Positions 32,778 to 48,204 of a DNA stretch of 64,000 bases are shown in pieces. The position numbers and the translations under genes are program-made. The DNA comes from Halobacterium sp. DL1. Lineage in GTDB: Archaea > Halobacteriota > Halobacteria > Halobacteriales > Halobacteriaceae. Numbering within the stretch: position 1 is the stretch's first letter; each line of letters starts with the position of its first letter. The stretch is taken from positions 62,001 through 126,000 of the forward strand of contig CP007061.1 in assembly GCA_000230955.3 (NCBI GenBank). The letters are read 5' to 3'. The notes below the pieces were generated by a model that was not told the origin of the DNA, did no database searches, and saw nothing but the letters and a program-made list of their open reading frames with translations.

Positions 32778-34180
32778 CATCCGTCTTTAGTTAGGAGATG
32801 AATCGCTGTACTGCGGTAGCTTATCGAGGCTTCTTTTCGAGAGGAATGAGGAAGTCGAGTCTGTGTACAACCAGACTTCCTCATCTCGAATTATGCGTCG
32901 GCTCACTACACTGTTTCCCTCCGAGTTCCTCGAAGAGCACGCCGAGGAACTCGGCGTGGTCGAACGCGACCGCAAGCTCCAGATTCCCGCTTTCATCTGG
33001 GCATTCGTGTTCGGCTTCGCCGCAGGCGAAAGCCGAACACTCGCAGGGTTTCGACGCAGCTACAACTCGACAGCTGACGAGTCGATCTCACCGGGTGGGT
33101 TCTATCAGCGGTTGACGCCGACGCTCGCGGAGTACCTCCGCGACCTCGTCGAGCATGGTCTCGACGAGGTCGCTGTTCCCGATGCTGTTGACGCTGATAT
33201 CAACCGATTCAGGGACGTGATAATCGCCGATGGAACGGTGTTGCGGTTACACGAGTTTCTCTCCGAGAAGTACGAAGCCCGCCACGAGGAGCAGGCTGGA
33301 GCGAAGCTCCACCTGCTCCACAATGCTACTGACCAAACGATTGAACGGATCGATGTTACCGACGAGAAAACACACGATAGCACGCTGTTCAAGACAGGGT
33401 CGTGGCTTGAGAACCGCCTCGTGTTGTTCGACTTAGCGTACTTCAAGTACCGCCGGTTTGCGCGGATTGACGAGAACGGCGGCTACTTCGTGAGCCGACT
33501 CAAACAGAACGCAAATCCGGTGATTACGGCTGAATTACGGGAATGGCGCGGGCGCGCCATTCCCTTAGAGGGCAAGCAGCTCCGAGAGGTTCTCGATGAC
33601 CTCTCGCGGACGTACATCGATGTGGAGGTCGAAGTCGAGTTCAAGCGTGGGCCGTACAACGGGACGCGGTCGCTAGATACGAAGCGGTTCCGCGTCGTCG
33701 GCGTCCGCAACGAGGACGCCGACGACTACCATCTGTACGTGACAAATCTGTCGAGAGAGGAGTTCTTTCCGGCAGACTTAGCGCAGATATACCGGTGTCG
33801 GTGGGAAGTTGAGTTGCTGTTCCGTGAGTTGAAGACACAGTACGACCTGGACGAGTTCGACACAAGCAACGAGGACGTAGTGAAGATCTTACTGTACGCA
33901 GCGTTGCTGTCACTGCTGGTGAGCCGTGAGCTGTTGGAACTGGTCACTGAGCAGGCTGGCGACGAGATCGTGTTTCCGCCGGAGCGCTGGGCGGCGACCT
34001 TCCGGTCGCACGCCCAGCTCATCCTCCACGAACTCGGCGAGTATCTCGGCTACTCGCCACCGCCGCTGTTGGAGCGGCTGATCGAAGACGCACAGAAGAT
34101 TCACCAGCAACGACCGATATTACAAGAGACGCTCGCTACCGCTACGCAACCGAGGTGTGAGTCTTAGCTAAAGACGAATG
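32778..34180 (+). mobile_element. ISH8-type (IS4-family) insertion sequence
   Basis: 1,403 bp with ends CATCCGTCTTTAGTTAGGA (left) and CATTCGTCTTTAGCTAAGA (right, read inward). No 10-bp duplication outside the ends (CGTTAGTGTC against GAAGTGACAT), so a deletion probably removed sequence on one side. It truncates the genes on both sides. Confidence 0.88.
32893..34167 (+). CDS. ISH8-type IS4-family transposase
   Basis: 424 residues from ATG 32893 (MRRLTTLFPSEFL), the usual ISH8 start. DDE acids are in IIADGTVLRLHE, LFDLAYFKY and the late YRCRWEVELLFRELK (the YREK-like signature of IS4). The frame is complete. Long palindromes are in the coding sequence, for example 33007-33040 (one bulge) and 33140-33173 (14-bp arms). 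Confidence 0.92.
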   Translation: MRRLTTLFPSEFLEEHAEELGVVERDRKLQIPAFIWAFVFGFAAGESRTLAGFRRSYNSTADESISPGGFYQRLTPTLAEYLRDLVEHGLDEVAVPDAVDADINRFRDVIIADGTVLRLHEFLSEKYEARHEEQAGAKLHLLHNATDQTIERIDVTDEKTHDSTLFKTGSWLENRLVLFDLAYFKYRRFARIDENGGYFVSRLKQNANPVITAELREWRGRAIPLEGKQLREVLDDLSRTYIDVEVEVEFKRGPYNGTRSLDTKRFRVVGVRNEDADDYHLYVTNLSREEFFPADLAQIYRCRWEVELLFRELKTQYDLDEFDTSNEDVVKILLYAALLSLLVSRELLELVTEQAGDEIVFPPERWAATFRSHAQLILHELGEYLGYSPPPLLERLIEDAQKIHQQRPILQETLATATQPRCES

Positions 34181-37100
34181 GAAGTGACATATTAGCCCCT
34201 TCTTTTCCTCCCGGTAGCTGTATCGGCCGTGGAGATTAATCCATGTCTCGTCACCGTGATCAAACTGAATTAGCTGTTCTAAATCTGGCGTCTCAGTACT
34301 AGTAACCCAATCTTTGTGTGACTGCTCGGGGTTGGTTGCTTCCTCTTCCGTTATAGGGTTCCACCAGTCTGTTTCCGGCTTTGTGTAGTGGGCCAGTGAG
34401 AAAGAAGGGTCGATATCTCGGTCGGATATGTGCCAGTCCCAAGGTTGGGGATATTCTGTAATTTCGGAGGTAGTTCCGGTGATTGGTTGGTAGTTATCGA
34501 AGACACGGGACTGAAGTTCGTGGTATGCAATCCACTGATACTTTTTTCCGATTCTCTCGGGTTTGGCCGTGTCGTGGCGGTCGTAGGGACGTTTCCTAAG
34601 TCGGTCGTCGAACTCCTTGAACAAGTCTGGATGCCAACCTAGTTCGATTATACGTTTGACTATCCATCGCAGAGCTTCTCCAATCTCTAAGTTGTGGTTT
34701 TTAAAGTATCGATCATTGTTACTGCCGACGATGTATCTTGCAAAGTCGCTGAACCCGTCACCCTCGTAATCACCTCCGATAAGATCAAACCATTCAGAGT
34801 CAAGGCTTTCCCAGTCGTGTTCTGTAGCCTCGACAACTGACTCCCACTGTTGTTTCAGTTCTTTCGCTGAGGGTATCTCCGGCTCTGGACTCTCGTATGG
34901 TGGGTCGACCAGTTCCTGGTTCACCTGAAAATCGGTGTCTGCTCGTAGACTGGCTTTGATGATTCCTCTGGCATAGTCACGAGCGAGGAAATGTGGTAGT
35001 GGACTGCAATCTTTGAATTCCCGCTGATATACCGCTTCAGCGAGTAGAGGCATCTCAGAATCACTGGGGTTTCGCAGACAAGCTCCGTAGGCTGAAGCGT
35101 ATACTCTTTCAAGTACATACGGGTCGTTCGCCCCTTGGAATTGGTTTACAACCTTCTTCCAAATTTCGAAGTCATCATCTAGCAGATTGGTCAAGGCCTT
35201 AGTCGCCCGGTCTCTCACGAACCGGTTTGAGCTCGTGAATAGCCACGAAAGGATGATTGACGAAAGTACCTTAACTTCATCACCGGGCTCTTCGTCTTCC
35301 AATTCTCCGGCCCATTCGACGATTCTAACAAGCTGAGTGGTGTTTTCAGGGTCCCAGCGCCGATTTAGATATAGTGTCCAGAGATGGTCTCTATCTTGGA
35401 TTTCTCTGTTTAGCAAGTTTTCGTGAAGATATTTAGCGTTGAAGGGGTGGTCTGGCTTCAGAGCCACAGTGAGTACCGTATCTAAGAAATTTGTTACACG
35501 ACGGCGGGTGTTGACAAAGTCATGGATGAAGTCTAGAATTGGCTCCTTGATTTCCCCATCTTGGTTGGTTAGGGTTTCTGGTTTTCGCCAAGTGATGCTA
35601 TCTATGAACGGTTCAACCAGATTCTCTCCTGGGAAGAATTCGAAGAGTTCTCGATCTACGTATTCAGGGAGTTGAATTGAGAGGGCTTGTATCAGTCCCG
35701 GGTTCCGACCATTCGAAATAATACGGCTTAGTTCGCTGCCATCTTGAAAAGATACATCGACGTCGTCAGTATCGAGATACAGGTCTAGGTATTCTTTAGC
35801 GATGAAGTGATCGGAGAATTTCTGATAGGGAAATCTCACTGCTTTTTGGTCTTCGCGGATATTGACAAATTCAGAAATCGCATTCTCAGACTCCATCCGG
35901 TGATATAGACTATCGTCATAACTGTCGGATTCGTAGAGACCTTCTAGAATCGCTATGGTTTCGTCTTTTGAAAGCCAATCCGTTTCCTGTTCTGCCATTT
36001 CCCGGGCTAAAGCTTCGACACCTTCCTTCACCAAGTTTCGATCAGGATTGTATCCCAGTTCGCTTGGACGAGAAATTTCCCTATGGATTGAGCCTAAATA
36101 GTTATTGAAAATATTGCTCAGGTTCTGGGATCCAGATGGTACCCGTGGTTCATCCCGTTCCTCAAGACTTTCACAAAATAGTTTGAGAAATAACGGATTC
36201 TGGAATTCAGGGGAGAGGAGAGGTACAGAAGGCTCTTCAAGACCGTAGTAGTCGAAGAAGGTTTGTGTTGCTTCGTATTCCCTATCGACAAATCCTCTAT
36301 GTTCTATCTTTACGAGATCGTCATCTGAGAGATGTTCCGGGATTATCCATCTCTCGTATTCCGGTCTCAGGCTGAAGGCTAGTCCGACGTAGGGATAGTG
36401 ACTAAGTTTCTGAATCATACCGGAGAGGTAGTCGAGCCATTGGTCCATCGCCCTGCTCTCATTTAGGCCATCTATCAGAATGAGAGATCGGACATCCCGA
36501 GCTTCACCGAAGGCATCTAACGCTTCCAAAAATTCGTCAACTCCGCATTCAAGTTCAGTTTCTTCGATTACGAATTTCCACGGATTACCGCCTTGATAGC
36601 TGTTGGCGAGAACTAATACAGTTGGTTTCCCTTCGGAAAGCCGGTTTTCGGCTATATCGCAGAAGAGGTGAGTCTTTCCGACGCCCGCTCCTCCCGTGAT
36701 GCAGAGTACAGAATTGTTTATTAGTGATGTTGAATCCTGTTGTAAGACGCTCCGGAAGTTCCGGAGTTCAGACCACAGCTCTCTCAAGTGTCGGTTTGCA
36801 GTTTTCAGTTCTTTGTCTTGTGACTCATCGTCCTGTTCTTCTCTGATTTCGTCTTGGAGAGTACTTACTGCTGATACAGCTGTGTTCGTCTCTGATATTA
36901 TTTCGCCGAGTGGGAATGGCTCATGGATTTTATTGAGGTTAGAAGCAAGCTGGGGAATGATTTCCAAGCTTTCAACTAGATCTTGGTACTCGCTGGAGTG
37001 AAGATTACGCAAGAGCTCGGGTCGCCCATCAGATAACGCCTTATGCTCTTTTTCTTGCAGATTAGACAGATTCCGTTGGAATTCGTTGTGGAACCAATTC

Positions 37101-37738
37101 GTTCTTCCTAATGCCTCAAACGCCTTTGCGATAGGGACATCAACGTCTGCTTCGGGAGTATATCGGGGTTTAGCGTTTTTAATCTGAACACCAGTCTGTT
37201 GTTCTAGTTTATTGTCCGTCAGCTGCTCTTTCTCAAACCAGAAGTAAAGGCGTCCTCTAAATTTCTCTTGATCAAGGAGTCCAGTTAGCTTTGATTCGCC
37301 CCAGTAAACGAATTCAACCTCCATATCACGATCTTCGGCCCAGTCCTCCCACTTCTCGATTCTATAATTCAGCTTCTCTAATTCTGTTTTCCGTCTTCCA
37401 TCATCCAAATCAGGGTCTTCGGGGTCGTAGGGGACACAAATAAAGTACTTAGAGAGATTGGGATGATTATCTAATGCAGCCTCTACAGAATCATCCAACT
37501 GATCTAGTTGACTCGAATCAATTTGATCGAAAAACTTTGCCTGCCATCCCCATGTCTCACCGTTTGGTAGTTCCCAAAGACATTCGATCCCAGAATCCCG
37601 GAATCCCTTCTTTGTGAACCTCGAGTCTTCAGGCACTTCGTCATACAACCGGGAAATCTGACAGCAAAGCTCCTCAAACCCGTCCTGGACCGATCCACCT
37701 ACAGGCCTAATGGAGTCGAAATCGAAGGTGGAAGACAT
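34142..37738 (-). CDS. Avs-like STAND NTPase with N-terminal nuclease-like domain, C-terminus altered by IS
   Basis: About 1,198 residues. The N-terminal ~170 residues (GGSVQDGFEELCCQI...GIECLWE...WGWQAKFF) look like a PD-(D/E)XK domain with E..QxK acids, of the Mrr/Cap4 type. The STAND/NACHT ATPase has Walker A GGAGVGKTH (near 350) and Walker B LILIDGLNE (near 420). A long helical repeat region follows. This layout matches antiviral STAND NTPases (Avs), which sense phage proteins and activate the N-terminal effector. Start ATG 37738 has GAGGTGATG just upstream, and the IS5 end begins at 37751, so the native promoter is gone. The last ~13 residues are encoded by the ISH8-type element, so the C-terminus is truncated. 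Confidence 0.8.
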   Translation of the reverse strand: MSSTFDFDSIRPVGGSVQDGFEELCCQISRLYDEVPEDSRFTKKGFRDSGIECLWELPNGETWGWQAKFFDQIDSSQLDQLDDSVEAALDNHPNLSKYFICVPYDPEDPDLDDGRRKTELEKLNYRIEKWEDWAEDRDMEVEFVYWGESKLTGLLDQEKFRGRLYFWFEKEQLTDNKLEQQTGVQIKNAKPRYTPEADVDVPIAKAFEALGRTNWFHNEFQRNLSNLQEKEHKALSDGRPELLRNLHSSEYQDLVESLEIIPQLASNLNKIHEPFPLGEIISETNTAVSAVSTLQDEIREEQDDESQDKELKTANRHLRELWSELRNFRSVLQQDSTSLINNSVLCITGGAGVGKTHLFCDIAENRLSEGKPTVLVLANSYQGGNPWKFVIEETELECGVDEFLEALDAFGEARDVRSLILIDGLNESRAMDQWLDYLSGMIQKLSHYPYVGLAFSLRPEYERWIIPEHLSDDDLVKIEHRGFVDREYEATQTFFDYYGLEEPSVPLLSPEFQNPLFLKLFCESLEERDEPRVPSGSQNLSNIFNNYLGSIHREISRPSELGYNPDRNLVKEGVEALAREMAEQETDWLSKDETIAILEGLYESDSYDDSLYHRMESENAISEFVNIREDQKAVRFPYQKFSDHFIAKEYLDLYLDTDDVDVSFQDGSELSRIISNGRNPGLIQALSIQLPEYVDRELFEFFPGENLVEPFIDSITWRKPETLTNQDGEIKEPILDFIHDFVNTRRRVTNFLDTVLTVALKPDHPFNAKYLHENLLNREIQDRDHLWTLYLNRRWDPENTTQLVRIVEWAGELEDEEPGDEVKVLSSIILSWLFTSSNRFVRDRATKALTNLLDDDFEIWKKVVNQFQGANDPYVLERVYASAYGACLRNPSDSEMPLLAEAVYQREFKDCSPLPHFLARDYARGIIKASLRADTDFQVNQELVDPPYESPEPEIPSAKELKQQWESVVEATEHDWESLDSEWFDLIGGDYEGDGFSDFARYIVGSNNDRYFKNHNLEIGEALRWIVKRIIELGWHPDLFKEFDDRLRKRPYDRHDTAKPERIGKKYQWIAYHELQSRVFDNYQPITGTTSEITEYPQPWDWHISDRDIDPSFSLAHYTKPETDWWNPITEEEATNPEQSHKDWVTSTETPDLEQLIQFDHGDETWINLHGRYSYREEKKGLICHFHSSLAKTHTSVA

Positions 37739-37802
37739 TACCATCACCTCGGCTCTGTTGAAATCCTTAGAGAATTACATGTTCGTCCTGTAATTCCACG
37801 AC

Positions 37803-38642: not shown

Positions 38643-39002
38643 CTACCGGTTACTGGCCCGTTCACCGGCGTCTTGGATTTTACCGTAGGCAGGTGCAAGC
38701 ACGTAATCCGCGACACCGAGCGCAACGATGAATCCTGCCAACCGGAGCCCATTGAAGCCGGTGTCGGTTCCTACGTCAATGAGAGCGACCAGTCCAGCCA
38801 CCCCGATACCAACCCCAATCCCGACAGTCAACTCTCGGCGATATTCACCCCACCAGACGATGATACCAGCACCCAGCAGCACGATACCACTCACAACCGC
38901 ATCGACACCAAACGACAGCCCACCAAAGGCCAGCCCACCGAGTACCAGTCCAATCCCGACCCGACGAAGTTGTTCGACCGGATCGAGTTCTTCTTCACTC
39001 AT
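38643..39002 (-). CDS. small membrane protein, IS5 passenger
   Basis: 119 residues with four hydrophobic segments (GIGLVLGGLAFGGLSF, AVVSGIVLLGAGIIVW, VGIGVGIGVAGLVALI, LAGFIVALGVADYVL). It aligns with the protein at 39756-40088 (QLRRVGIGLVLGGL with QIQRLGVGATVGGL; TVGIGVGIG with TVGVGIGILG). It is convergent with the transposase. Relatedness to a halocin-cluster gene suggests an accessory or immunity function, which is inference. Confidence 0.7.
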   Translation of the reverse strand: MSEEELDPVEQLRRVGIGLVLGGLAFGGLSFGVDAVVSGIVLLGAGIIVWWGEYRRELTVGIGVGIGVAGLVALIDVGTDTGFNGLRLAGFIVALGVADYVLAPAYGKIQDAGERASNR

Positions 39003-39164
39003 ACATGTAATTCACCAGACACCCACAAAACGCTATGGGTATTATATGACTTTTTATTGGTCAATACGCAGCTCTCATTAACTGGGGCGTTTCAAGCAAG
39101 GATATGTACGAAGAATAGGGTTTCAACAGAGCCAGAAGATTTGAGGATTGTCAAAACCTCAGAA

Positions 39165-39545
39165 ATGAACGGATTTCGCCTCTTCAAAGGCTTCGAAGAT
39201 TCGTCAGAACAATCATCTCAACAGGATCCAGATTCGGACTTGGATCTCCAAGTGTATGAGGTGCTCTTAGAGGATCGTGAGATTCAGTACGAAGTACAAG
39301 AATTATTCGAAGACGACGAACCGAGCTCGGATGATATTGAAGTTGGAGAAGTAGCTATAGCACAACAGTCTTGTTTGAATACCTGTACTACGTGTATCGG
39401 AATCATTGGAGGAGCCTGTCCAGCATGTTTGGCTTTCTTAACTTTTGGCGTCCCGGGCGCAGTAGCGTTTATTATCTGTTTCACGAGTGTTTGTGGGATT
39501 ACTCTCCCGGTCTTTTGTGGCCAGTGTCTTGATTGTGGGACCTAA
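39165..39545 (+). CDS. halocin-C8-like cysteine-rich peptide precursor
   Basis: 126 residues from ATG 39165, 31 bp beyond the IS5 end. An acidic leader (about 68 residues, EDSSEQSSQQDPDSDLDL...SSDDIEVGEVAIAQQ) is followed by a hydrophobic core of about 57 residues with ten cysteines in pairs (CLNTC, CTTC, CPAC, CGQCLDC). Halocin C8 likewise has a hydrophobic ten-Cys mature peptide released from a larger precursor. No Tat signal is present, in contrast to halocin C8. The frame is open upstream into the IS, so the N-terminus may have been cut, or export may use the ABC transporter downstream. Cleavage near AIAQQS is a guess. Confidence 0.65.
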   Translation: MNGFRLFKGFEDSSEQSSQQDPDSDLDLQVYEVLLEDREIQYEVQELFEDDEPSSDDIEVGEVAIAQQSCLNTCTTCIGIIGGACPACLAFLTFGVPGAVAFIICFTSVCGITLPVFCGQCLDCGT

Positions 39546-39550
39546 CCGAA

Positions 39551-39562
39551 CAATTATATAAT
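39551..39562 (+). promoter_or_regulatory. TATA element before the 58-residue membrane gene
   Basis: AATTATATAATT, about 26 bp before the ATG at 39583, which would give a leaderless transcript separate from the peptide gene. Confidence 0.45.
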
Positions 39563-39582
39563 TTCTGGTCATCTACATCAAT

Positions 39583-39759
39583 ATGAAACAAAATCAGTAT
39601 ATCTGGGTATTAGCAGCCCTCCATGCGATTGTACTCATCATTTTACTATATGGTGTGTCAACAGACTCAGATCAAATCTTGAATTACGCGTTGGGACTAA
39701 TCTTTTTACTTATGTTACCGGTAGCGTATCTGGTTGCGAAACGAGCTGATGTGTTATGA
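39583..39759 (+). CDS. two-helix membrane protein of the halocin-like cluster
   Basis: 58 residues with hydrophobic helices at about 7-25 and 33-51 ending in LMLPVAYLVAKRA. It is a relative of the IS5 passenger at 12389-12562. Its stop overlaps the start of the next gene (ATGA), so the two are coupled. Possible immunity or maturation factor; evidence is positional only. Confidence 0.7.
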   Translation: MKQNQYIWVLAALHAIVLIILLYGVSTDSDQILNYALGLIFLLMLPVAYLVAKRADVL

Positions 39760-40088
39760 ATGGCCGCGATTCGAATACAACCCTTGATGAGTCAACGCAA
39801 ATTCAGCGACTTGGCGTCGGTGCCACGGTTGGCGGCCTCATCCTTATTGGTGTCGTGTCGGTCAGTTCATCGTTTAATGCAGCGAGCGTCCTGATTGCGC
39901 TTGGCGCAGTAGCTGTCCTCGGTGAATGGATAGTCTCCCGATCGTACACCGTCGGAGTTGGAATCGGTATCCTCGGCATATTCCCGCTTGTCGGAGAAAT
40001 TCCCGTCGACCTCCGGTTTATCGGCGGTGCAGCAGTTGTGGCAGGTGTCGTCGTCTACCTGCTCGGGCCACGCCTCAACACCGTATAA
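39756..40088 (+). CDS. four-helix membrane protein of the halocin-like cluster
   Basis: 110 residues. A short polar N-terminus is followed by four hydrophobic segments of about 15-20 residues. Relative of the IS5 passenger at 38643-39002. Without the 210-bp IS66-type MITE that follows, its stop would lie about 25 bp before the ABC ATPase start, so peptide, membrane proteins and exporter form one ancestral operon. Likely producer immunity or export helper (inference). Confidence 0.7.
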   Translation: MNGRDSNTTLDESTQIQRLGVGATVGGLILIGVVSVSSSFNAASVLIALGAVAVLGEWIVSRSYTVGVGIGILGIFPLVGEIPVDLRFIGGAAVVAGVVVYLLGPRLNTV

Positions 40089-40095
40089 AAATATC

Positions 40096-40305
40096 GTATG
40101 TGTTTACCCCCAGAAATCGCAAGACAGAAGAGGCTTTTGCTAGCGCCCAGCTTCACCGCTCAACGGCGTAACGTCACTAACACCAGCGCCGTCTGTCGAT
40201 TTTTGAATTCACCGCCAAACAGGATCACTTATAAATGCTATTTTGCCCCTTATTTTCGGGCGTTTCAGGGGATTGAGAACCCTCTCTGTGGGGGTAAACA
40301 GATAC
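40096..40305. mobile_element. IS66-derived MITE with 8-bp duplication
   Basis: 210 bp with ends GTATGTGTTTACCCCCAG and, read inward, GTATCTGTTTACCCCCAC, matching the IS66 at 4253-5853. Perfect direct repeat AAAATATC at 40088-40095 and 40306-40313. No protein is encoded. It separates the membrane protein genes from the ABC transporter genes. Confidence 0.92.
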
Positions 40306-40330
40306 AAAATATCGAAACGACGCCCTCACA

Positions 40331-41110
40331 ATGGTTGCAATCGAAACTCACGACCTGACGAAACAATACGGAACTGTCCTCGCCGTCGACGACCTCTCGC
40401 TGTCCATTCCGGAAGGTGTCGTCTACGGTGTGCTTGGCCCGAACGGTGCCGGCAAAACGACCATGATGCGGATGTTGACCACGCTCACGAAACCAACCAG
40501 TGGTTCCGCGAGGGTGATGGGCGATCCCATCACGGATCGTCTCGCCCTCGTCGAACATATCGGTTACCTTCCCGAAGAACCACCCCTGTTCGATGAACTC
40601 TCCGGACACGAGCAGTTGGACTATATCCGCGGCCTGCGTGATCTCCCGCTGGAGCCAACGCAAGAGCGCATTGAGAGCCTCGTCGACGCACTTGACCTCG
40701 AGGATTACATCGACCGCCGTATTGCTACATACTCGAAGGGGACCCGTCAGAAACTCGCCTTCGTCCAGATCCTGTTACACGGCCCCGACGTGCTTTTTCT
40801 CGATGAACCGACAGAGGGCCTCGATCCACGAGCGGCCCGCACCCTCCGAACCATGATCGACGATCTCGCCGACGAGGGAACAACGATCATCCTGTCGTCA
40901 CACATCCTGCCGATCGTCGAAGAACACGCTGATATCGTCGGTGTCATCTCGAATGGCCAACTCGTCGCCGAAGGAGCGCCTTCCGAGCTTCAGCGCCGCG
41001 CCGAAACCGGAAAAAAACGCTCGCTCGAGGACGTCTTCCTCGAGGTAACGCAGGAACTCCCAGACGCGACGCAGGGGCCCGAAGACGAATCGGGAAACCA
41101 CGATGAGTGA
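40331..41110 (+). CDS. ABC transporter ATP-binding protein
   Basis: 259 residues. Walker A GPNGAGKTT (near 36), Q-loop in IGYLPEEPP, signature YSKGTRQKL (near 134; a C-motif variant), Walker B VLFLDEPTEGLDP and H-loop SSHIL. It is an exporter-type ATPase of the ABC-2 or Nat/Ecs kind. The stop overlaps the permease start by 8 bp. Its position after the halocin-like genes suggests peptide export or immunity. Confidence 0.9.
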   Translation: MVAIETHDLTKQYGTVLAVDDLSLSIPEGVVYGVLGPNGAGKTTMMRMLTTLTKPTSGSARVMGDPITDRLALVEHIGYLPEEPPLFDELSGHEQLDYIRGLRDLPLEPTQERIESLVDALDLEDYIDRRIATYSKGTRQKLAFVQILLHGPDVLFLDEPTEGLDPRAARTLRTMIDDLADEGTTIILSSHILPIVEEHADIVGVISNGQLVAEGAPSELQRRAETGKKRSLEDVFLEVTQELPDATQGPEDESGNHDE

Positions 41111-42845
41111 CCGCCGCTGGCTCAGACACGGCGTACGAATCGGGACAACTGAGTATCGGCGGACGCTCCGTGGGCTTCGTCAGGACTCCCTCCGACTGTT
41201 CCTGGTTGGTGGAGCAGTACTGGCCGTTCTGGCGGTAACGGCCTTTCTGGTACTGCTCATGCGCCTCTTTCTGGCTGATTTGGAACCAACACCGCTGCCT
41301 GCGATGCTTGCTGGACTTACTGTCCCGTTCTGGGGGACGATCGTTTATTTATATGCCGCTAGAGCGCTCTCCCGGACGGGACGGATCGACGCAGAATCAC
41401 TCATGCTTACGACGACATCAACGCGGGCAGTCGTAACTGGTCTCGTTATCGCCGAACTCCTCCGTGGGGCAACCTATCTCGCCCTACCGACGATCATTCT
41501 CGCAGGGGCGTTCGCTGCGACGGTCGGGGCACCACTCTCGGTGCTCTGTATCCCACTCGCGGTCACTACACTCCTCGCGAGTGCTGGTATCGTCGGGTAC
41601 ACGCTTGGTCTCGCCGGCGCGACGCTCGTTTCGACCTCACCGTTCATCGCTCGATATAAAACCCCTCTTGGAATTGGTCTCGCAGTGCTTCTCATGGGTC
41701 CCATCTTCGCGCTGAGTTCTGGCCGGATCGATTTCGCCGTCCTTGCGTCGGTTCCTATCGCTTGGTATACTGACCTCCTCGTTGTCGGATCACCGATTCA
41801 GCCATCACTGCTTAGAGCACTCGGGGCGATTGGGGTGACGATCGCACTTGTTGGTCTCGCTGGGGCGGCCGTTGATCGCCTCGCAGGAATCTACTGGTAC
41901 AGCGATCCGATCACAGGTACCATAACTGGGGTGGAATCGACTTCCCCGCCGGAGGCCGTTTCGCCACTTGAAGCGGCACTGCGGCCCATCCCGTTGTCGC
42001 TCGTTCTCTCGAAGACACCGAGCCGGACCGTCGCAGCCAGAGCACTCATCCAGACGCTCCGGAACCCTGGAAAACTATCGTTCGTCCTCCTACCGGCCAT
42101 CGTGGCAGCACCGACAATCGTGAATGCTTTCGGTTCCGGGATCGGCTGGGAAATCCTCTTGGCGGTATGTTTTGTCGGTATTCCCTGGTTTAGTGGCGTC
42201 GCCTTCGGGTTGAATCCGCTCGGCGACGAAGGTGATGTACTACCCGTGACACTCACGACAACGGTCTCCGGTCGGACGTTTGTGCGGGGCTTGGCAATCC
42301 TCGGCTTCTCTGTCGGCAGCATGCTCCTACTTCTTACAGGACTCGTTTTTGGGCTGTTCAGTCCCTTCAACACGACTGATCTCACGGCAGCACTGCTGTT
42401 GGCAGCTGCCCTCCTGTGGTGTTCTGTATTGCTTGCACCTGCAGCCGGAGTTCGGTTTCCCCGGTTTAGTACAGTCTCCGCTGGTCGGGCTCAAAACATC
42501 CTCCCGCCGAGCTTGACGGCGAGTACACTCCACGGAATTATCGTGTTCGGTTTCGGGCTGTTCGGTGCGCTGTCGTGGTTCCTTCCCGAAGGAACACGGT
42601 CTATCATCGCTGGATTCTTTTCGACGGTTCTCTCGCTCCCCTTGGTGTGGGTAGCTGAACGTGGTGTCGGTCTCGTCGAGCCAGTGCTCACGACTGTACG
42701 CACAATTGGATCAGGAGTTGGGAACCTCGCGCCGGGGGTTATTCAGTTGGGTGGCTACGGTGGCGCGATCGGGGGACTCGTCCTTCTCGGTGTAACGTCC
42801 TATTGGTATGTCATCAGTCGGTTCGAGTCTTACCAGATCTCGTGA
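41103..42845 (+). CDS. ABC transporter permease
   Basis: 580 residues with about twelve to fourteen hydrophobic segments (for example LFLVGGAVLAVLAVTAFLVLLM and GLFGALSWFL), no signal peptide and no enzymatic motif. It resembles large haloarchaeal ABC-2-like permeases coupled to a single ATPase. Cotranscribed with the ATPase. The substrate is inferred to be the ten-Cys peptide or a related toxin; the pair could also be unrelated to it. Confidence 0.82.
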   Translation: MSDRRWLRHGVRIGTTEYRRTLRGLRQDSLRLFLVGGAVLAVLAVTAFLVLLMRLFLADLEPTPLPAMLAGLTVPFWGTIVYLYAARALSRTGRIDAESLMLTTTSTRAVVTGLVIAELLRGATYLALPTIILAGAFAATVGAPLSVLCIPLAVTTLLASAGIVGYTLGLAGATLVSTSPFIARYKTPLGIGLAVLLMGPIFALSSGRIDFAVLASVPIAWYTDLLVVGSPIQPSLLRALGAIGVTIALVGLAGAAVDRLAGIYWYSDPITGTITGVESTSPPEAVSPLEAALRPIPLSLVLSKTPSRTVAARALIQTLRNPGKLSFVLLPAIVAAPTIVNAFGSGIGWEILLAVCFVGIPWFSGVAFGLNPLGDEGDVLPVTLTTTVSGRTFVRGLAILGFSVGSMLLLLTGLVFGLFSPFNTTDLTAALLLAAALLWCSVLLAPAAGVRFPRFSTVSAGRAQNILPPSLTASTLHGIIVFGFGLFGALSWFLPEGTRSIIAGFFSTVLSLPLVWVAERGVGLVEPVLTTVRTIGSGVGNLAPGVIQLGGYGGAIGGLVLLGVTSYWYVISRFESYQIS

Positions 42846-42926: not shown

Positions 42927-43541
42927 ATGACCACCTCTAACGATTCATCTCCCATTGAGAGTCTTCAAATGCGCTCCCTGTGCGAAGCGTACCAGCTCGG
43001 GATCATCATCCGAAACAAACTCAGAGAAACCAATCTCGTCACCGCATTCGAGAACCTCGATCACTCGATAGACTCGATTGAAGACGGGTATCCAGCGTGG
43101 CATCCTGCGCCACTTTCCTTTCGCGCGATGGTGTTCTCGTTCGTGTTCGTGGAGATAACGGGTGACTCATACGCCGACTTCAGTCGACGACTTACCCGAC
43201 AACCGGAAGTCGCCACTATTCTCGGCTTCAGCCGGGTGCCCGACGAATCAGCCTTCTCGCGGGCGTGGCGAAATCGATTCGACAACGCCGTTCACGAATA
43301 CATCCACGCTGCCGCCCACTTCGTCATCAAGGAAGTCCACGATCGCGACATTTCAGCGCCCGAGGTTCGGCCAAAGTCAGAGATCCTCAACGATACTGAG
43401 GAAGCCGCAGACTCAGTAGAAGACGAATCCTTCTCACAGGAGGAGATTGTTCAGACAACGCGCCTCGCGCGTGATCACGCCTTCGGACACTTCGACTCTG
43501 GTCGGGCGTCGAACGCCTCGTACGAGGACACGCAATTTTTC
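42927..43541 (+). pseudogene. transposase, N-terminal part, split by the composite transposon
   Basis: 205 codons from ATG 42927 up to ...SYEDTQFF, where the ISH6-type end begins. The C-terminal part resumes in frame at 47570 (ELQTFMGMV). The N-terminal region (FRAMVFSFVFVEITGDSYADFSRRLTRQPEVATILGF...DESAFSRAWRNRF) is the DNA-binding part of a haloarchaeal DDE transposase whose family I cannot name. Confidence 0.85.
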
Positions 43542-43725
43542 GGTCGCGTCGCAAAGCGGTCTAGAGTTTCGAGTTATGGTCATGTAGACTACTCGGCGGT
43601 GCTATCTCTAACGCTCTCTAAGCTACGTGCACTTGGTGCACACCATTCTAACGCAGTATTTTTGTTTGTACTAAGTACCGTCGGGACTCTCAGCGGCAAA
43701 CTCTAGAGGACTTTGCGACACGACC
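43542..43725. repeat. ISH6-type MITE, left arm of the composite
   Basis: 184 bp bounded by GGTCGCGTCGCAAAGCGGTC and, read inward, GGTCGTGTCGCAAAGTCCTC. The interior has no open frame. It shares CAGCGGCAAA next to the end with the complete ISH6. Confidence 0.85.
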
Positions 43726-43813
43726 AAATATTTAGATTTCTACATGTTCGGTAGTTCCAGTACTTCTCAGATCCTGACTTCTCAGATCCTGTGTTATCAT
43801 TCTATGTTCATAT

Positions 43814-44095
43814 TCAATCTTGGTCTGTTTTATCAGAGTTCGTTGTTGACTGAGAGATAGTCTGTTCAACTAGTGGTTCGTCCCAGTTGCCCCACTCGCC
43901 AGGTTGGTCACCCAAACTGACAATGTAATAGAGGAGGGCTTGCCAAAACAAGAAGAGAACGAACCCGACGGGAAGAGTGAAAAACACCACTTCGAACGTA
44001 CTCAGAGACCAACGAATGATGATTTGCCACACAACGAGTGTCACAACACTGACAGCGAGACCTGCTACGAGTACGAACCGATTTACACTCGTCAT
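43814..44095 (-). CDS. small membrane protein, transposon cargo
   Basis: 93 residues from ATG 44095 with two hydrophobic helices (FVLVAGLAVSVVTLVVWQIII, VVFFTLPVGFVLFLFWQALLYYIV) and a polar acidic C-terminus. Its start overlaps the stop of the 7TM/ATP-grasp gene, so it is a coupled partner. Function unknown. Confidence 0.75.
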   Translation of the reverse strand: MTSVNRFVLVAGLAVSVVTLVVWQIIIRWSLSTFEVVFFTLPVGFVLFLFWQALLYYIVSLGDQPGEWGNWDEPLVEQTISQSTTNSDKTDQD

Positions 44096-45846
44096 TGGTA
44101 TCCCGCTGTGTCCCACTGTTTAGCAAGGTCGACTTTCTTTTCGGGTGGATAGAACTCACACGCTGGTGGGAGTTCACAGATCCATTCCAACCGTTTCAAC
44201 AGCCCAAGACGGGTCGTGTTTTGGATTCCGAGCCCCGGATACGCGTTTACTTCGAATACAAGTGGTGTATTAGACCCGTCGAGAGTGATATCAACACCAG
44301 CATACCCGAGTCCAGAGGCGGCCGCGGTCTCAACGGCTGTCTGTAAGATCCGATCCCATTCCGGAATTTTGAATGCTGTAAGGTCGACGCCAGTATCGGG
44401 ATGGGTAGGCACCCAGCGATGATGGCTCTGTTGATACGCGCCGAGTGGAGTTCCATCAGCAACTGTAAGCCCGACTCCAATTGCTCCTTTGTGAAGATTC
44501 GCTTGATTCCCCGATTCAATGGTCGGCAGTCTCGTCATCGCCATGATCGGATATCCTTGAAATACAATAATTCGAATATCTGGGACGCCACCTGATGAGA
44601 GTCGTCTAAATAACGGGCTTGCCTCTACCCGTTGTTCGATGATCGCAGCACCGCTCAGATTGATTCCTGCATACTGACCTTGGATGATCCGTTGGACGTG
44701 TCGAAGGAGGTCGTCGACTGTCTTTTTTCCATCCGTCGTGTGATATGTGTCTTCAGTACGATCTGTGATTATGAGAATACCTTCACCGCCGTATGCATCA
44801 TCCGGTTTAATTACAAACGAATCTCGTTTTTCAAACACAGCTCTCGCTTGAGAGAGATCGTCCGTATCTTCCACGATTGCGTACGTGTCCGGTGTCGGAA
44901 TACCTAACCCGTGCAATCGTCGCTTTGTTTCGACTTTTCCCGCACTCGTTCGAAGATGACCTGGATTATACTGCTTTATGTATCTATTCCTGATATTTAT
45001 GCCCAGTACGTCTGTAAGTGAGGTTTGTCTCGGCTCCTGACGGACCCAAGCCGAGATATTGCGGAGTGCAACCTGTATCCGAGTCCCGATCCCATTTATG
45101 AATCCGCCCCAGTGGGAATTGAATCGATAATACTCTTTTAATCGAGTTCGAGTTGTAACTCCCAAATAGAGATTTGTTCCAATGAGTAGTACCCACAGTT
45201 CCGGTGTACGAATATACCAGTCGACAATCGGTCTCGTAGAAATCAGGCCGTAAGTGAGTACGATTGCGAGTAAGGTCCAAATGAACTGAATTGATGGCAC
45301 AGACCAGCCACGTTCTTCGACATCACTGGCAAAGCGATCGGCATACCACGCGGTGACAATTGCCGGAAAAAAGACCTCAATCGTCCCAGAAAGACGGGGT
45401 AACAGCCCAATATCACCCATCAGTAAAAACGCAGCCACAGAGAGGCCGACGACACTAATTATGGCCCCAAGACGGTGGGCTGTTCCAACATTTAGCGGTT
45501 CTAATATCGCGTAAACTCCCATAGAAATAACAAAAATATTTAAGAAAAGTCCTAATCCCCAAATTAAGCCTGTCGACAGCAATGTTAGTGCAAGGACGAT
45601 CGGAGCAAACAGCCCGTAGGTCTTTAGCCCCAATTCGTTTCGGAGAATAGCTATGAGACCTGCTGCAAGCGTCAATTGAAACAGCGTTCGATATGGCTCA
45701 AGTAATGTCGACAAAGACGTAGAGAACAGTCGTAACGTCCACCCAAGTATAAGAAAAATCAGTAGTAGGCTCGCTACGAGATAATATTGGAATGTATAGC
45801 TTTCAAAAAATTTATTAAAATATCTTAGTTTACCTTGATTAGTCAT
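44092..45846 (-). CDS. 7TM domain fused to ATP-grasp ligase-like domain
   Basis: 584 residues. Seven or eight hydrophobic helices (about 20-255) of the type seen in 7TM proteins linked to transglutaminase-like and RimK-like genes are followed by an ATP-grasp domain (about 290-565; KRRLHGLGIPTPDTYA, FVIKPDDAYGGEGI, GVDITLDGSNTPLVFEVNAYPGLGIQNTTR). In bacteria the 7TM and alpha-L-glutamate-ligase-like parts are usually separate neighbouring genes; here they are one polypeptide. I infer ATP-dependent amide-bond formation at the membrane face; substrate unknown. GC content is lower than in most of the window. Confidence 0.8.
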   Translation of the reverse strand: MTNQGKLRYFNKFFESYTFQYYLVASLLLIFLILGWTLRLFSTSLSTLLEPYRTLFQLTLAAGLIAILRNELGLKTYGLFAPIVLALTLLSTGLIWGLGLFLNIFVISMGVYAILEPLNVGTAHRLGAIISVVGLSVAAFLLMGDIGLLPRLSGTIEVFFPAIVTAWYADRFASDVEERGWSVPSIQFIWTLLAIVLTYGLISTRPIVDWYIRTPELWVLLIGTNLYLGVTTRTRLKEYYRFNSHWGGFINGIGTRIQVALRNISAWVRQEPRQTSLTDVLGINIRNRYIKQYNPGHLRTSAGKVETKRRLHGLGIPTPDTYAIVEDTDDLSQARAVFEKRDSFVIKPDDAYGGEGILIITDRTEDTYHTTDGKKTVDDLLRHVQRIIQGQYAGINLSGAAIIEQRVEASPLFRRLSSGGVPDIRIIVFQGYPIMAMTRLPTIESGNQANLHKGAIGVGLTVADGTPLGAYQQSHHRWVPTHPDTGVDLTAFKIPEWDRILQTAVETAAASGLGYAGVDITLDGSNTPLVFEVNAYPGLGIQNTTRLGLLKRLEWICELPPACEFYPPEKKVDLAKQWDTAGYQ

Positions 45847-46125
45847 AATTCTATCCGTACCTCATCACTATTTTGAGATATACTCGACATACTGTATTTA
45901 TAGACCGAATGAGTATACTTAGCTCTGTTGAAATCCTTAGAAAGTGATATATTCTGCTTCAATTACGGTCAATACAGAGTGTAGATTCAGCGAAGTATCT
46001 TAGATAACAGTGGGCGTCACGAGAGACGGACTAGTCGGTGGCGTAGAATACAACCAATTTGGATGAACAGACTCTAGTCATGTAGAGAAACTTTATGTTT
46101 TCATCGTTTGTGACTACAATTTGTG
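45847..46125. other. non-coding cargo flank with a lone IS5 end
   Basis: About 280 AT-rich bases. AGCTCTGTTGAAATCCTTAG at 45921-45940 is an IS5-type left end without a transposase or right end, a relic probably cut off by ISH6. No gene seen. Confidence 0.6.
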
Positions 46126-47569
46126 GGTCGTGTCGCAAAGTCCTCTAGAGTTCAGTAGTAACTGACTCCCGTGAAGGCGGGGTTGCCTCTGGTGTCCAAA
46201 CCGAGGTACCCCATGCACGCCACAATCGACGTGCGGTTCGAACTGAGTATCGACGACGACAAAACGCTACCGCTCGCCACGCTTGCCGAGGCCGTCACTG
46301 ACCAGAACCTCGAAGCAGTCCTTCTCGAATCGCTGGTCGAGAGCCTCGACGCCGCCAGCGTCGAGGCGCTCTGTGGTGAGAAACACGCACATGGCAACGG
46401 TGACCAGCGCTTCCAACGCGCCGGCACCGACACCCGCACAGCTGTCACAACTGCCGGAGAACACGAGTTCTCTCTCCACTACGTCGAAGATACAGCCGCT
46501 TCCCCAGACGAATCCAGCTACTTCCGGCCCGTCGAAGACGTTCTCGACTTCGACGGGCAGAACCGCTATCAGCAGGACATCGCCGCCAAAAGCGTCGATC
46601 TCGCTACCTCGCTCAGCTATCGAGACGCTGCCAATCACGGCGACAGCTTCGTCTCGATGCCGTCGCCGACCACCATCAACCGCCGTGCAAAGAAATACGG
46701 CCACAAGCTCAAACAGTTCCTTCCAGACTGTGTCGCTGGCACAGACGCTGACGCCGTCATTCCTGACGGGACAAAGTGCCACAGCCAAGACGACGACCGC
46801 TCGTCCCACTCCGTCCAAGCAACGCTCGGCGAAGACACCGCCGAAGAGTCACGCTCCCTGCTGGATCTGTCGGTCAACGCTGACTGGGACGAAACTGCCG
46901 CCGAACTCGATGATATCGGCGCAGTCACTGACGACGCGACGGTCGTCAGTGACGCTGATAGCGGCATCGTCACAGCCTTTACCGACGAAAACCGTGACCA
47001 CCAGCTCGATCTCGTCCACGTCGGCCGAACGCTGGGTTACACCCTCTGGGACGATGGCGTCTTCTCCTTGGACCGTCGGAAGGAGATCGTTTCGGAGGTG
47101 ATCGACGAGGTGTTCCATCTGAAGAACTCTGTGGCGAAGCATCGTCCAGCGGAGGAGTTCGCGGCGATCCGCTCGCGGATCGCGCGAACGAGAGAGCGAT
47201 TAGAGAAGACAGCGTGGCAACTGGAGCAGTTCGGGTCAGCAAAGGCTGCAGGGTATCTTCGGCGGTGGCTGCCGTCGATTGTGACGTTCGCCGAGCACGC
47301 TGTCGAGGGGTTCGAGGTTCCGTGGACCTCGAACCCCGTCGAACGACTGATGGGCGAGGTCAGCAAGCGGTGCAAGAACCAGTGGATGCGCTGGACAGCA
47401 GAGGGATTGGAAGCGATACTCCAACTTCGGTTGGTGAAGTACGCCGACCCCGAGTACTACCATGCGTTCCTCGACGAACTGCTCCAACGTTCGACCAAAA
47501 CAGCAATCAACTGTGACCTCTCAATTGAGAGTACCAGCGGCAAAGTCTAGACCGCTTTGCAACACGACC
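46126..47569 (+). mobile_element. complete ISH6-family insertion sequence
   Basis: 1,444 bp, ends GGTCGTGTCGCAAAGTCC and, read inward, GGTCGTGTTGCAAAGCGG. Right arm of the composite transposon. Its left side has no matching duplication, in line with movement as part of the larger unit. Confidence 0.93.
46213..47550 (+). CDS. ISH6-family transposase
   Basis: 445 residues from ATG 46213 (an in-frame ATG at 46171 lies closer to the terminal repeat). Features: NRYQQDIAAKSVDLATSLSYRDAA region, VIPDGTKCHSQ and VVSDADSGI acidic motifs, and the C-terminal WTSNPVERLMGEVSKRCKNQWMRW block with the likely catalytic Glu. Frame intact. Palindrome with 12-bp arms at 46924-46953 is conserved in the copy at 546-575. 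Confidence 0.93.
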   Translation: MHATIDVRFELSIDDDKTLPLATLAEAVTDQNLEAVLLESLVESLDAASVEALCGEKHAHGNGDQRFQRAGTDTRTAVTTAGEHEFSLHYVEDTAASPDESSYFRPVEDVLDFDGQNRYQQDIAAKSVDLATSLSYRDAANHGDSFVSMPSPTTINRRAKKYGHKLKQFLPDCVAGTDADAVIPDGTKCHSQDDDRSSHSVQATLGEDTAEESRSLLDLSVNADWDETAAELDDIGAVTDDATVVSDADSGIVTAFTDENRDHQLDLVHVGRTLGYTLWDDGVFSLDRRKEIVSEVIDEVFHLKNSVAKHRPAEEFAAIRSRIARTRERLEKTAWQLEQFGSAKAAGYLRRWLPSIVTFAEHAVEGFEVPWTSNPVERLMGEVSKRCKNQWMRWTAEGLEAILQLRLVKYADPEYYHAFLDELLQRSTKTAINCDLSIESTSGKV

Positions 47570-48204
47570 AATTTTTCGAGTTACAGACATTCATGGGAAT
47601 GGTTCGGTGCGGAGCCACGCAGGGAGCTACTCGCTTTCAGTACCGGCGTGGCGAGGACTACGGCCCACATGGCGATACCCACCTTCGCACTGTCAAGCAG
47701 TTCGATCCTGACGAGCTTGTCGACGGCTTCTACGAGACAACGGATCGCTTGCTTTCCGTGATTGCTTCTGAATCCTCATTCCGCCGTCCAGTCACTGCGG
47801 CGATCGACATCACCACCATTCCCTATTATGGAGATGTCGAGGAGATGTCGATGGTCAGCGGGACGAAAGACAGGGACGGTCGAGCGTTCAAATTTGCGAC
47901 GCTGTCGATCATCGGGCAGAACATCCCGCTGATTTTGGCTGTCGAGCCGGTTCGAGAGAGCTCTGAGTGGGATGAGAACCCGTCGAATCAGATCCATCGT
48001 ACTGTGCGACGGCTCGTTCGACGAGCGAAAGAGCATGTTCCAATCGAGACAGTGCTGTGTGATCGAGAGTTTGACTCGATACAAGTGTTCCAGACACTCT
48101 CAAACCTCGATGTGAACTACCTCATACCTAAGCGGGTCTCCAGCTCCGAACGGGATGTACTTGAACAAATGGAGGAAATGATCCGGGCGCTGATGGACCG
48201 ATGA
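47570..48204 (+). pseudogene. transposase, C-terminal part, split by the composite transposon
   Basis: Continues the protein of 42927-43541 from the duplicated FF codons. It contains AAIDITTIPYYGD and ETVLCDREFDS, two of the expected DDE acids, and ends at 48204 before the usual third motif, so the 3' end may also be lost. It overlaps the start of the next gene by 4 bp. Confidence 0.82.

Follow-up and report, generated by a model that had tools for sequence, protein, structure and literature searches.

A haloarchaeal fusion of a 7TM_transglut membrane domain and an ATP-grasp ligase within an ISH6-type transposition unit

Introduction

Ligases of the RimK/ArgX/LysX group are soluble and carry no membrane domain, and in the PgsB-PgsC polyglutamate synthase a ligase, the Mur-type PgsB, is found together with a small polytopic membrane protein and the product is an exported polyamide. 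The closest described system to the locus reported here is RloB-RloC of the Pseudomonas aeruginosa rlo operon, for which the available part of the source describes a 7TM_transglut protein and an alpha-L-glutamate-ligase-like ATP-grasp protein as partners encoded by two genes, an inactive transglutaminase domain ahead of the 7TM part of RloB, and a secreted protease, RloA, in the same operon (PMC12239564). According to that same part, P. aeruginosa genetics places RloA, RloB and RloC in one pathway, RloA cleaves polyglutamate substrates in vitro, and in Pseudomonas the two proteins RloB and RloC have effects on osmotic tolerance, antibiotic resistance, biofilm and cell shape (PMC12239564). Shewanella is reported to release more vesicles when it loses a related membrane protein (PMC12096838).

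Here we describe a haloarchaeal protein in which 7TM domain and ligase form one chain. It is encoded in the window, i.e. the whole 64,000-nucleotide stretch of Halobacterium sp. DL1 that was analyzed, which is part of a 316-kb contig.

Results and Discussion

Fusion Gene, Domains and Membrane Partner

The minus strand at 44092-45846 reads as 584 codons without a break, where the plus strand has 24 stops. Both Pfam domains, 7TM_transglut (PF14402) and ATPgrasp_ST (PF14397), lie within this one frame and above their curated cut-offs of 25 and 31.4 bits (Table 1). A first interpretation of the DNA made without database searches (the sequence-only reading) had proposed a 7TM domain and an ATP-grasp ligase in a single archaeal protein, coupled to a second small membrane protein and located on a transposon, and all three proposals are borne out below. 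Its label of "7TM/transglutaminase-like" needs a correction: the 7TM_transglut domain is there, but no transglutaminase model in Pfam matches the protein (E to 0.1), nor does any match the four scanned (L016, L018, L019 and L021; E to 0.01) of the seven other distinct haloarchaeal loci. Where bacterial RloB has its transglutaminase domain, ahead of the 7TM part, the fusion has only a short loop. In NCBIfam, the full-length model TIGR02291 (RloC; alpha-L-glutamate ligase-like) reached 240.1 bits, below its cut-off of 314.2, and the RloB model NF052267 reached 52.9 bits, below its cut-off of 900, covering residues 50-244 only.

Table 1. Positions of the transposition unit, its cargo and its insertion site in the window.
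Feature	Position	Strand	Evidence
Target transposase gene, 5' part	42927..43541	+	no NCBIfam match of its own
Left target-site duplication, AATTTTTC	43534..43541		identical 8-bp flank
Whole ISH6-type transposition unit, 4,028 bp	43542..47569		ISH6-type ends and identical 8-bp flanks
MITE-like element with ISH6-type ends, 184 bp, left boundary	43542..43725		end pairs
Small two-TM membrane protein, 100 aa	43814..44116	-	ORF; two hydrophobic segments
7TM and ATP-grasp fusion gene, 584 aa	44092..45846	-	ORF; Pfam and NCBIfam; AF2 model
ATP-grasp ligase domain, residues 286-557	44176..44991	-	PF14397, 201.9 bits
7TM_transglut domain, residues 51-243	45118..45696	-	PF14402, 86.4 bits
N-terminal membrane helix, residues 3-40	45727..45840	-	AF2 helix H3-40, start at lower confidence; hydrophobic peak 23-41
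ISH6 insertion sequence, 1,444 bp, right boundary	46126..47569	+	end pairs; transposase match
Right target-site duplication, AATTTTTC	47570..47577		identical 8-bp flank
Target transposase gene, 3' part	47578..48204	+	ISH3-like, 53.1 bits, below cut-off 225

An alignment of 27 archaeal and bacterial proteins showed R69, G73, G78, F80, P82, P161 and R171 of the 7TM part conserved at 96-100%, with G78, F80, P82 and P161 identical in all 27 rows. Across 14 ligases from archaea and bacteria, the residues identical in every row include K347, G353, G354, E404, R425, D519, E532 and N534.

Immediately downstream comes the gene for the small membrane protein, which shares 25 bp with the 3' end of the fusion gene. 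At all eight distinct haloarchaeal loci the ligase is directly followed by a small protein with hydrophobic segments, with overlaps of 1-25 bp, and apart from this gene no frame outside the fusion was common to all eight (BLAST among L015-L022). The small proteins were alike by BLAST (E <= 1e-6) only among L019, L020, L021 and L022, those of the window, L016, L017 and L018 being matched by place and pattern, and no Pfam family scored above cut-off at the six of eight loci scanned. Gene order is alike over a wide stretch between L019 and L021. One family resembling signal transduction by eye was common to L015, L016 and L017.

Structure Models

The AF2 model of the fusion (23 rows) had a mean pLDDT of 83.8 and a pTM of 0.61. 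Searches of solved structures by sequence returned only weak matches, all to RimK-type ligases, while the predicted ligase domain best matched ArgX (Z 17.6) and RimK (Z 16.9) in the PDB. The ligase domain is alike in fold to RimK, ArgX and LysX, at Z 16.4-17.6 and rmsd 2.9-3.3 A over 206-214 residues with 18-24% identity. Sequence and model thus describe an N-terminal helix and 7TM part followed by a complete RimK/ArgX-fold ligase with its conserved residues.

The 7TM part modelled alone (20 rows; pLDDT 81.4, pTM 0.73) had no Foldseek match in the PDB at E <= 0.001. In a second structure comparison, its three best rows were an Mtr chain (Z 8.5, 3.4 A, 128 residues), an Rnf chain (Z 7.9) and a chain from another Mtr complex (Z 7.5), and lower rows held further Rnf (7.0, 6.1) and Nqr chains (6.9, 6.6, 6.6, 6.3, 5.4) mixed with ABC-transporter and ExbB chains. 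These Mtr/Rnf/Nqr matches span 114-148 residues, with subunit names taken from chain letters, and by the search tool's own guidance their scores are within the chance range, as Z values below about 13 are common for helical bundles. MtrC, D and E are described in PMC12774963 as adopting a rare pseudo-twofold fold that modestly resembles NqrE and may serve sodium translocation. The MtrC/RnfA/NqrE sodium-pump fold, although the top structural match of the model, is without sequence support: comparison of the 7TM profile with Rnf/Nqr and MtrC profiles gave no signal over decoys, and since the Rnf/Nqr-MtrC positive control was equally silent, this comparison has no power. Non-overlapping halves of the 7TM part aligned solely at two P motifs, and weakly (p 0.012-0.072 vs 0.13-0.42 for decoys).

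It would be a long shot, in our estimation, that 7TM_transglut is an unrecognized member of the Mtr/Rnf/Nqr fold, a pseudo-twofold bundle with two helix-start motifs (GxFxP at 78-82 and FFP at 159-161), and that the fusion is a single-chain, ion-coupled peptide synthase-exporter in which the ligase would make an acidic peptide with ATP, a sodium gradient would drive its export and transposition would have spread the system among halophiles.

Homology of the 7TM part to CapC/PgsC (PF14102), a candidate prompted by P motifs seen by eye, was also examined, using those of 371-411 aa among 30 collected haloarchaeal CapC frames. An earlier comparison, in which 20 7TM rows were used, had suggested collinearity across 168 columns (p 0.15); the hhalign p of 0.14-0.34 was no better than that of reversed decoys (0.068-0.20), and the homology is therefore not supported. 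The haloarchaeal CapC frames themselves (L042-L071) are about 380-430 aa long and often have two CapC repeats, and PF14102 occurred in 26 of 97 genomes.

Transposition Unit and Insertion Site

The transposase encoded at 46171-47550 matched NF041731 (ISH6) in NCBIfam at 388.2 bits (cut-off 240), and a perfect inverted repeat of 27 bp (43699-43725 and 46126-46152) lies at the inner ends of the MITE-like element and the ISH6 copy. When the unit is removed and its flanks are joined with one copy of AATTTTTC, the two parts of the target gene read through as one open frame of 413 aa. Because the outer 8-bp flanks are identical and the inner flanks, AAATATTT vs AATTTGTG, are unlike each other, a single insertion of the whole unit is the simplest account; most simply, then, the fusion and its partner arrived in one event within another transposase gene. 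The ISH6 transposase would have acted on the outer ends of the MITE-like copy and of the full ISH6 copy, and the fusion and its partner would be the cargo. The same genome has two more pairs of ISH6-type ends with a spacing of 1,445 bp, which likewise show 8-bp flanking duplications, AAGTTTTT and CATAAATT. No ISH6-type ends were present at the other seven distinct haloarchaeal loci or at the remnant L041 (16.6-18 kb read), and the transposon is therefore a local feature.

The cargo has a GC content of 46% vs 56% for the window, and GC3 of the fusion gene is 0.43 vs 0.68-0.82 in six other distinct fused haloarchaeal genes (0.71 and 0.80 for the two halves at L019).

A near-identical copy, L015, occurs in a genome from another family, where it sits on a 3.3-Mb contig at the edge of a lower-GC stretch. 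Over 2,384 bp it matches the window at 99.9% identity; the match takes in the MITE-like element and the genes for the small protein and the fusion, but the ISH6 copy is absent. The two sequences differ at two positions, one at 43537 in the flank and one inside the element over 2,375 bp. An exact 8-bp duplication was not found around the MITE-like element at L015 (AATATTTC vs AAATATTT). Such identity between families points to recent transfer and, as far as sequence comparison goes, shows that the fusion system has moved between families at least once.

The 209 bp between the cargo common to L015 and the ISH6 copy (45917-46125) are absent from L015. A 33-bp piece within them resembles window 37752-37784 at 85% and is perhaps the end of another insertion sequence.

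Bacterial Relatives

In agreement with the sequence-only reading, which held that bacteria usually encode the two parts separately, a 7TM protein (502-529 aa) and a ligase frame (315-390 aa) were separate neighbors in the same order at 18 of 18 bacterial loci, drawn from a peptide-pattern scan of named contigs (two loci share one isolate). Within the class of L023, PF14402 was found in 39 of 185 genomes, and 39 of the 40 matches were not fused to a ligase. All 40 loci were inspected, i.e. L023, eight loci comprising L083-L089 and L091, and the 31 loci L142-L172. L023 has the RloB-type order, with PF14400 at 24-177 and PF14402 at 258-503. The transglutaminase part was present in 31 of 31 of the L142-L172 group and a full ligase frame adjoined in 29; at L171 the ligase is truncated at the contig end, and at L165 the contig stops just past the 7TM frame, and the sole ATP-grasp match there is weak (32 bits) and distant. 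No ligase was seen in the stretches read at L085 and L086, and L089 (PF14402 at 20 bits) had no match to the follow-up profiles.

The exception is L083, an 838-aa chain of transglutaminase, 7TM and ligase. Like the haloarchaeal fusion it joins 7TM and ligase, but unlike it L083 retains the transglutaminase core and is followed by a TPR-like frame. Its branch in the ligase tree is very long and its placement unsure (51/9), so the case for a separate origin comes mainly from its different domain make-up.

PF01841 scored above cut-off in the RloB-like proteins at L083 4476-6992 and L084 4724-6340 (62.7 and 63.7 bits), where by eye the Cys, His and Asp are kept, and perhaps these are active enzymes in a family called inactive. 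At both loci the next frames look like TPR proteins by eye.

Occurrence in Archaea

In the class sample, PF14402 was found in seven of 145 haloarchaeal genomes, fused to the ligase in six, and seven other genomes of the window's genus in that sample are without the 7TM domain. The seventh carrier, L019, has neighboring frames of 347 and 388 aa, and a 92-bp tandem duplication in the linker (99-bp identical run) disrupts the frame, so that this is a fused gene that either underwent fission or was misassembled. Scanning named genome contigs with short peptide patterns added fused copies at L021 (Natronolimnohabitans sp.) and L022 (Halostagnicola sp.), as well as the broken pieces of a remnant, L041 (N. 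innermongolicus). Across 392 genomes of the phylum there were five matches, four of them haloarchaea already counted and the fifth, L090, in a genome that is 56% complete and belongs to another family, outside the order. There a 455-aa 7TM_transglut protein, whose outer part is different, has a separate 319-aa ligase as its neighbor.

The strongest seven PF14397 matches among 141 haloarchaeal genomes (196-226 bits) belonged to the seven 7TM carriers, all others being at or below 139 bits, and in a tree of 30 ligases the eight distinct haloarchaeal rows formed one clade (support 99/98). Many archaeal genomes with the fusion as a standard form were named with the sequence-only reading as what would refute it. 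Within haloarchaea this is largely the case, as carriers of the 7TM domain have the fused form as standard (six of seven genomes), but across haloarchaea as a whole the fusion is uncommon; judged from the genomes surveyed, those few haloarchaea that possess the system usually have it fused, and the system is rare and patchy overall. The fusion, the partner, the transposon and the bacterial separation thus stand from that reading, but the fusion is not a one-off.

A scan with six short exact peptide patterns found no relative in viral contigs, and among plasmids the only relatives were a Legionella record (36% identity) and an Aeromonas record (32%). No description of the archaeal fusion was found in the literature searched, a search of limited reach, and the main text of PMC11237513, on archaeal fusions, contains neither "transglutaminase" nor "glutamate ligase".

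The outer part at L090 (5405-6772) is non-transglutaminase and includes an acidic Asp-Thr repeat.

Comparison with Known Systems and Rival Explanations

The haloarchaeal protein is a variant of the RloB-RloC kind without the transglutaminase domain. Its natural fusion in haloarchaea and in one bacterium argues that 7TM domain and ligase are direct partners, acting together, and would place the 7TM C-terminus in the cytoplasm. We hold with middling confidence that the fusion is a minimal one-chain RloB-RloC-type synthase, in which a RimK-fold ligase is joined to a membrane domain that would handle or export its putative amide product. Counted for this reading were the domains, the ligase fold, the conserved residues, bacterial adjacency at 18 of 18 loci, the fused L083, the coincidence of ligases above 190 bits with 7TM carriers, the partner at eight of eight loci, the common genetic pathway of RloB and RloC together with polyglutamate cleavage by RloA in vitro (PMC12239564), transposition and the identity with L015. 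Counted against it were that, to our knowledge, not even RloB or RloC has been assigned a substrate, product or transport activity, the lack of an RloA-like neighbor, the sub-cut-off NCBIfam scores, a 7TM part without a clear solved relative and a partner whose BLAST likeness is limited. In seven of seven carriers, matches to the RloA-like protease (PF05618) were on another contig or more than 600 kb from the fusion; no such protease lies beside the haloarchaeal fusions and a small two-TM gene follows them instead, in which they differ from the rlo operon. The likeness to PgsB-PgsC is one of concept.

The orientation, chemistry, product and transport of the fusion, as we infer them, would be as follows. 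The ligase would face the cytoplasm and, with ATP, would convert a carboxylate through an acyl phosphate to an amide with an amino acid. Amide formation would probably be repeated, and the putative peptide would be glutamate-rich or similar and either free or acceptor-bound. The 7TM domain would take up this product and move or present it across the membrane, with the fusion setting a 7TM to ligase ratio of 1:1 and keeping the ligase at the membrane domain's mouth.

The 7TM part could instead be a membrane anchor or sensor only, with a ligase that modifies a membrane or ribosomal protein in the manner of RimK. RimK is among the nearest solved folds and, in the available part of PMC12239564, modifies RpsF; a sensor could also control the ligase under osmotic stress. 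The conservation of the seven 7TM residues listed above is, however, beyond what a plain anchor needs, and ligases above 190 bits never occurred without a 7TM domain among the 141 haloarchaeal genomes, and we consider this explanation possible but doubtful. A 7TM domain that flips a lipid- or sugar-linked acceptor for the ligase to decorate seems to us unlikely: the Pfam name of PF14397, sugar-transfer associated ATP-grasp, fits it, as do the glycosyltransferase-like and flippase-like frames seen by eye next to L022, but the small gene alone recurs beside all eight haloarchaeal loci. We give still less weight to the window copy being non-functional cargo in transit. The 316-kb contig with several transposases around, the absence of the system from the seven other genomes of the genus and the broken remnant L041 are what such cargo would lead one to expect, yet the frame is full-length, the conserved ligase residues are intact and a single difference separates it from L015 over 2,375 bp.

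The archaeal form shows that a transglutaminase domain and a neighboring protease may both be absent, and it thus offers a small natural version for expression, purification and structure.

Other Observations

A PF05618 protease-like domain occurred in 15 of 15 haloarchaeal genomes, with 15 of 17 matches in open frames of 459-521 aa, which may be RimK-protease fusions. In the window, a frame of 1,201 aa with a Walker-A-like GGAGVGKT (34142-37747, minus strand) looks like a large NTPase and is possibly defence-related. Window 38673-39545 (plus strand), 39756-40088, 40331-41110 and 41103-42845 form a possible haloarchaeal peptide-antibiotic cluster, with a precursor-like frame whose C-terminus is cysteine-rich and which had no Pfam or NCBIfam match, an ABC ATPase (PF00005) and a polytopic protein; this stretch (38673-42845) presumably resembles the halocin C8 clusters.
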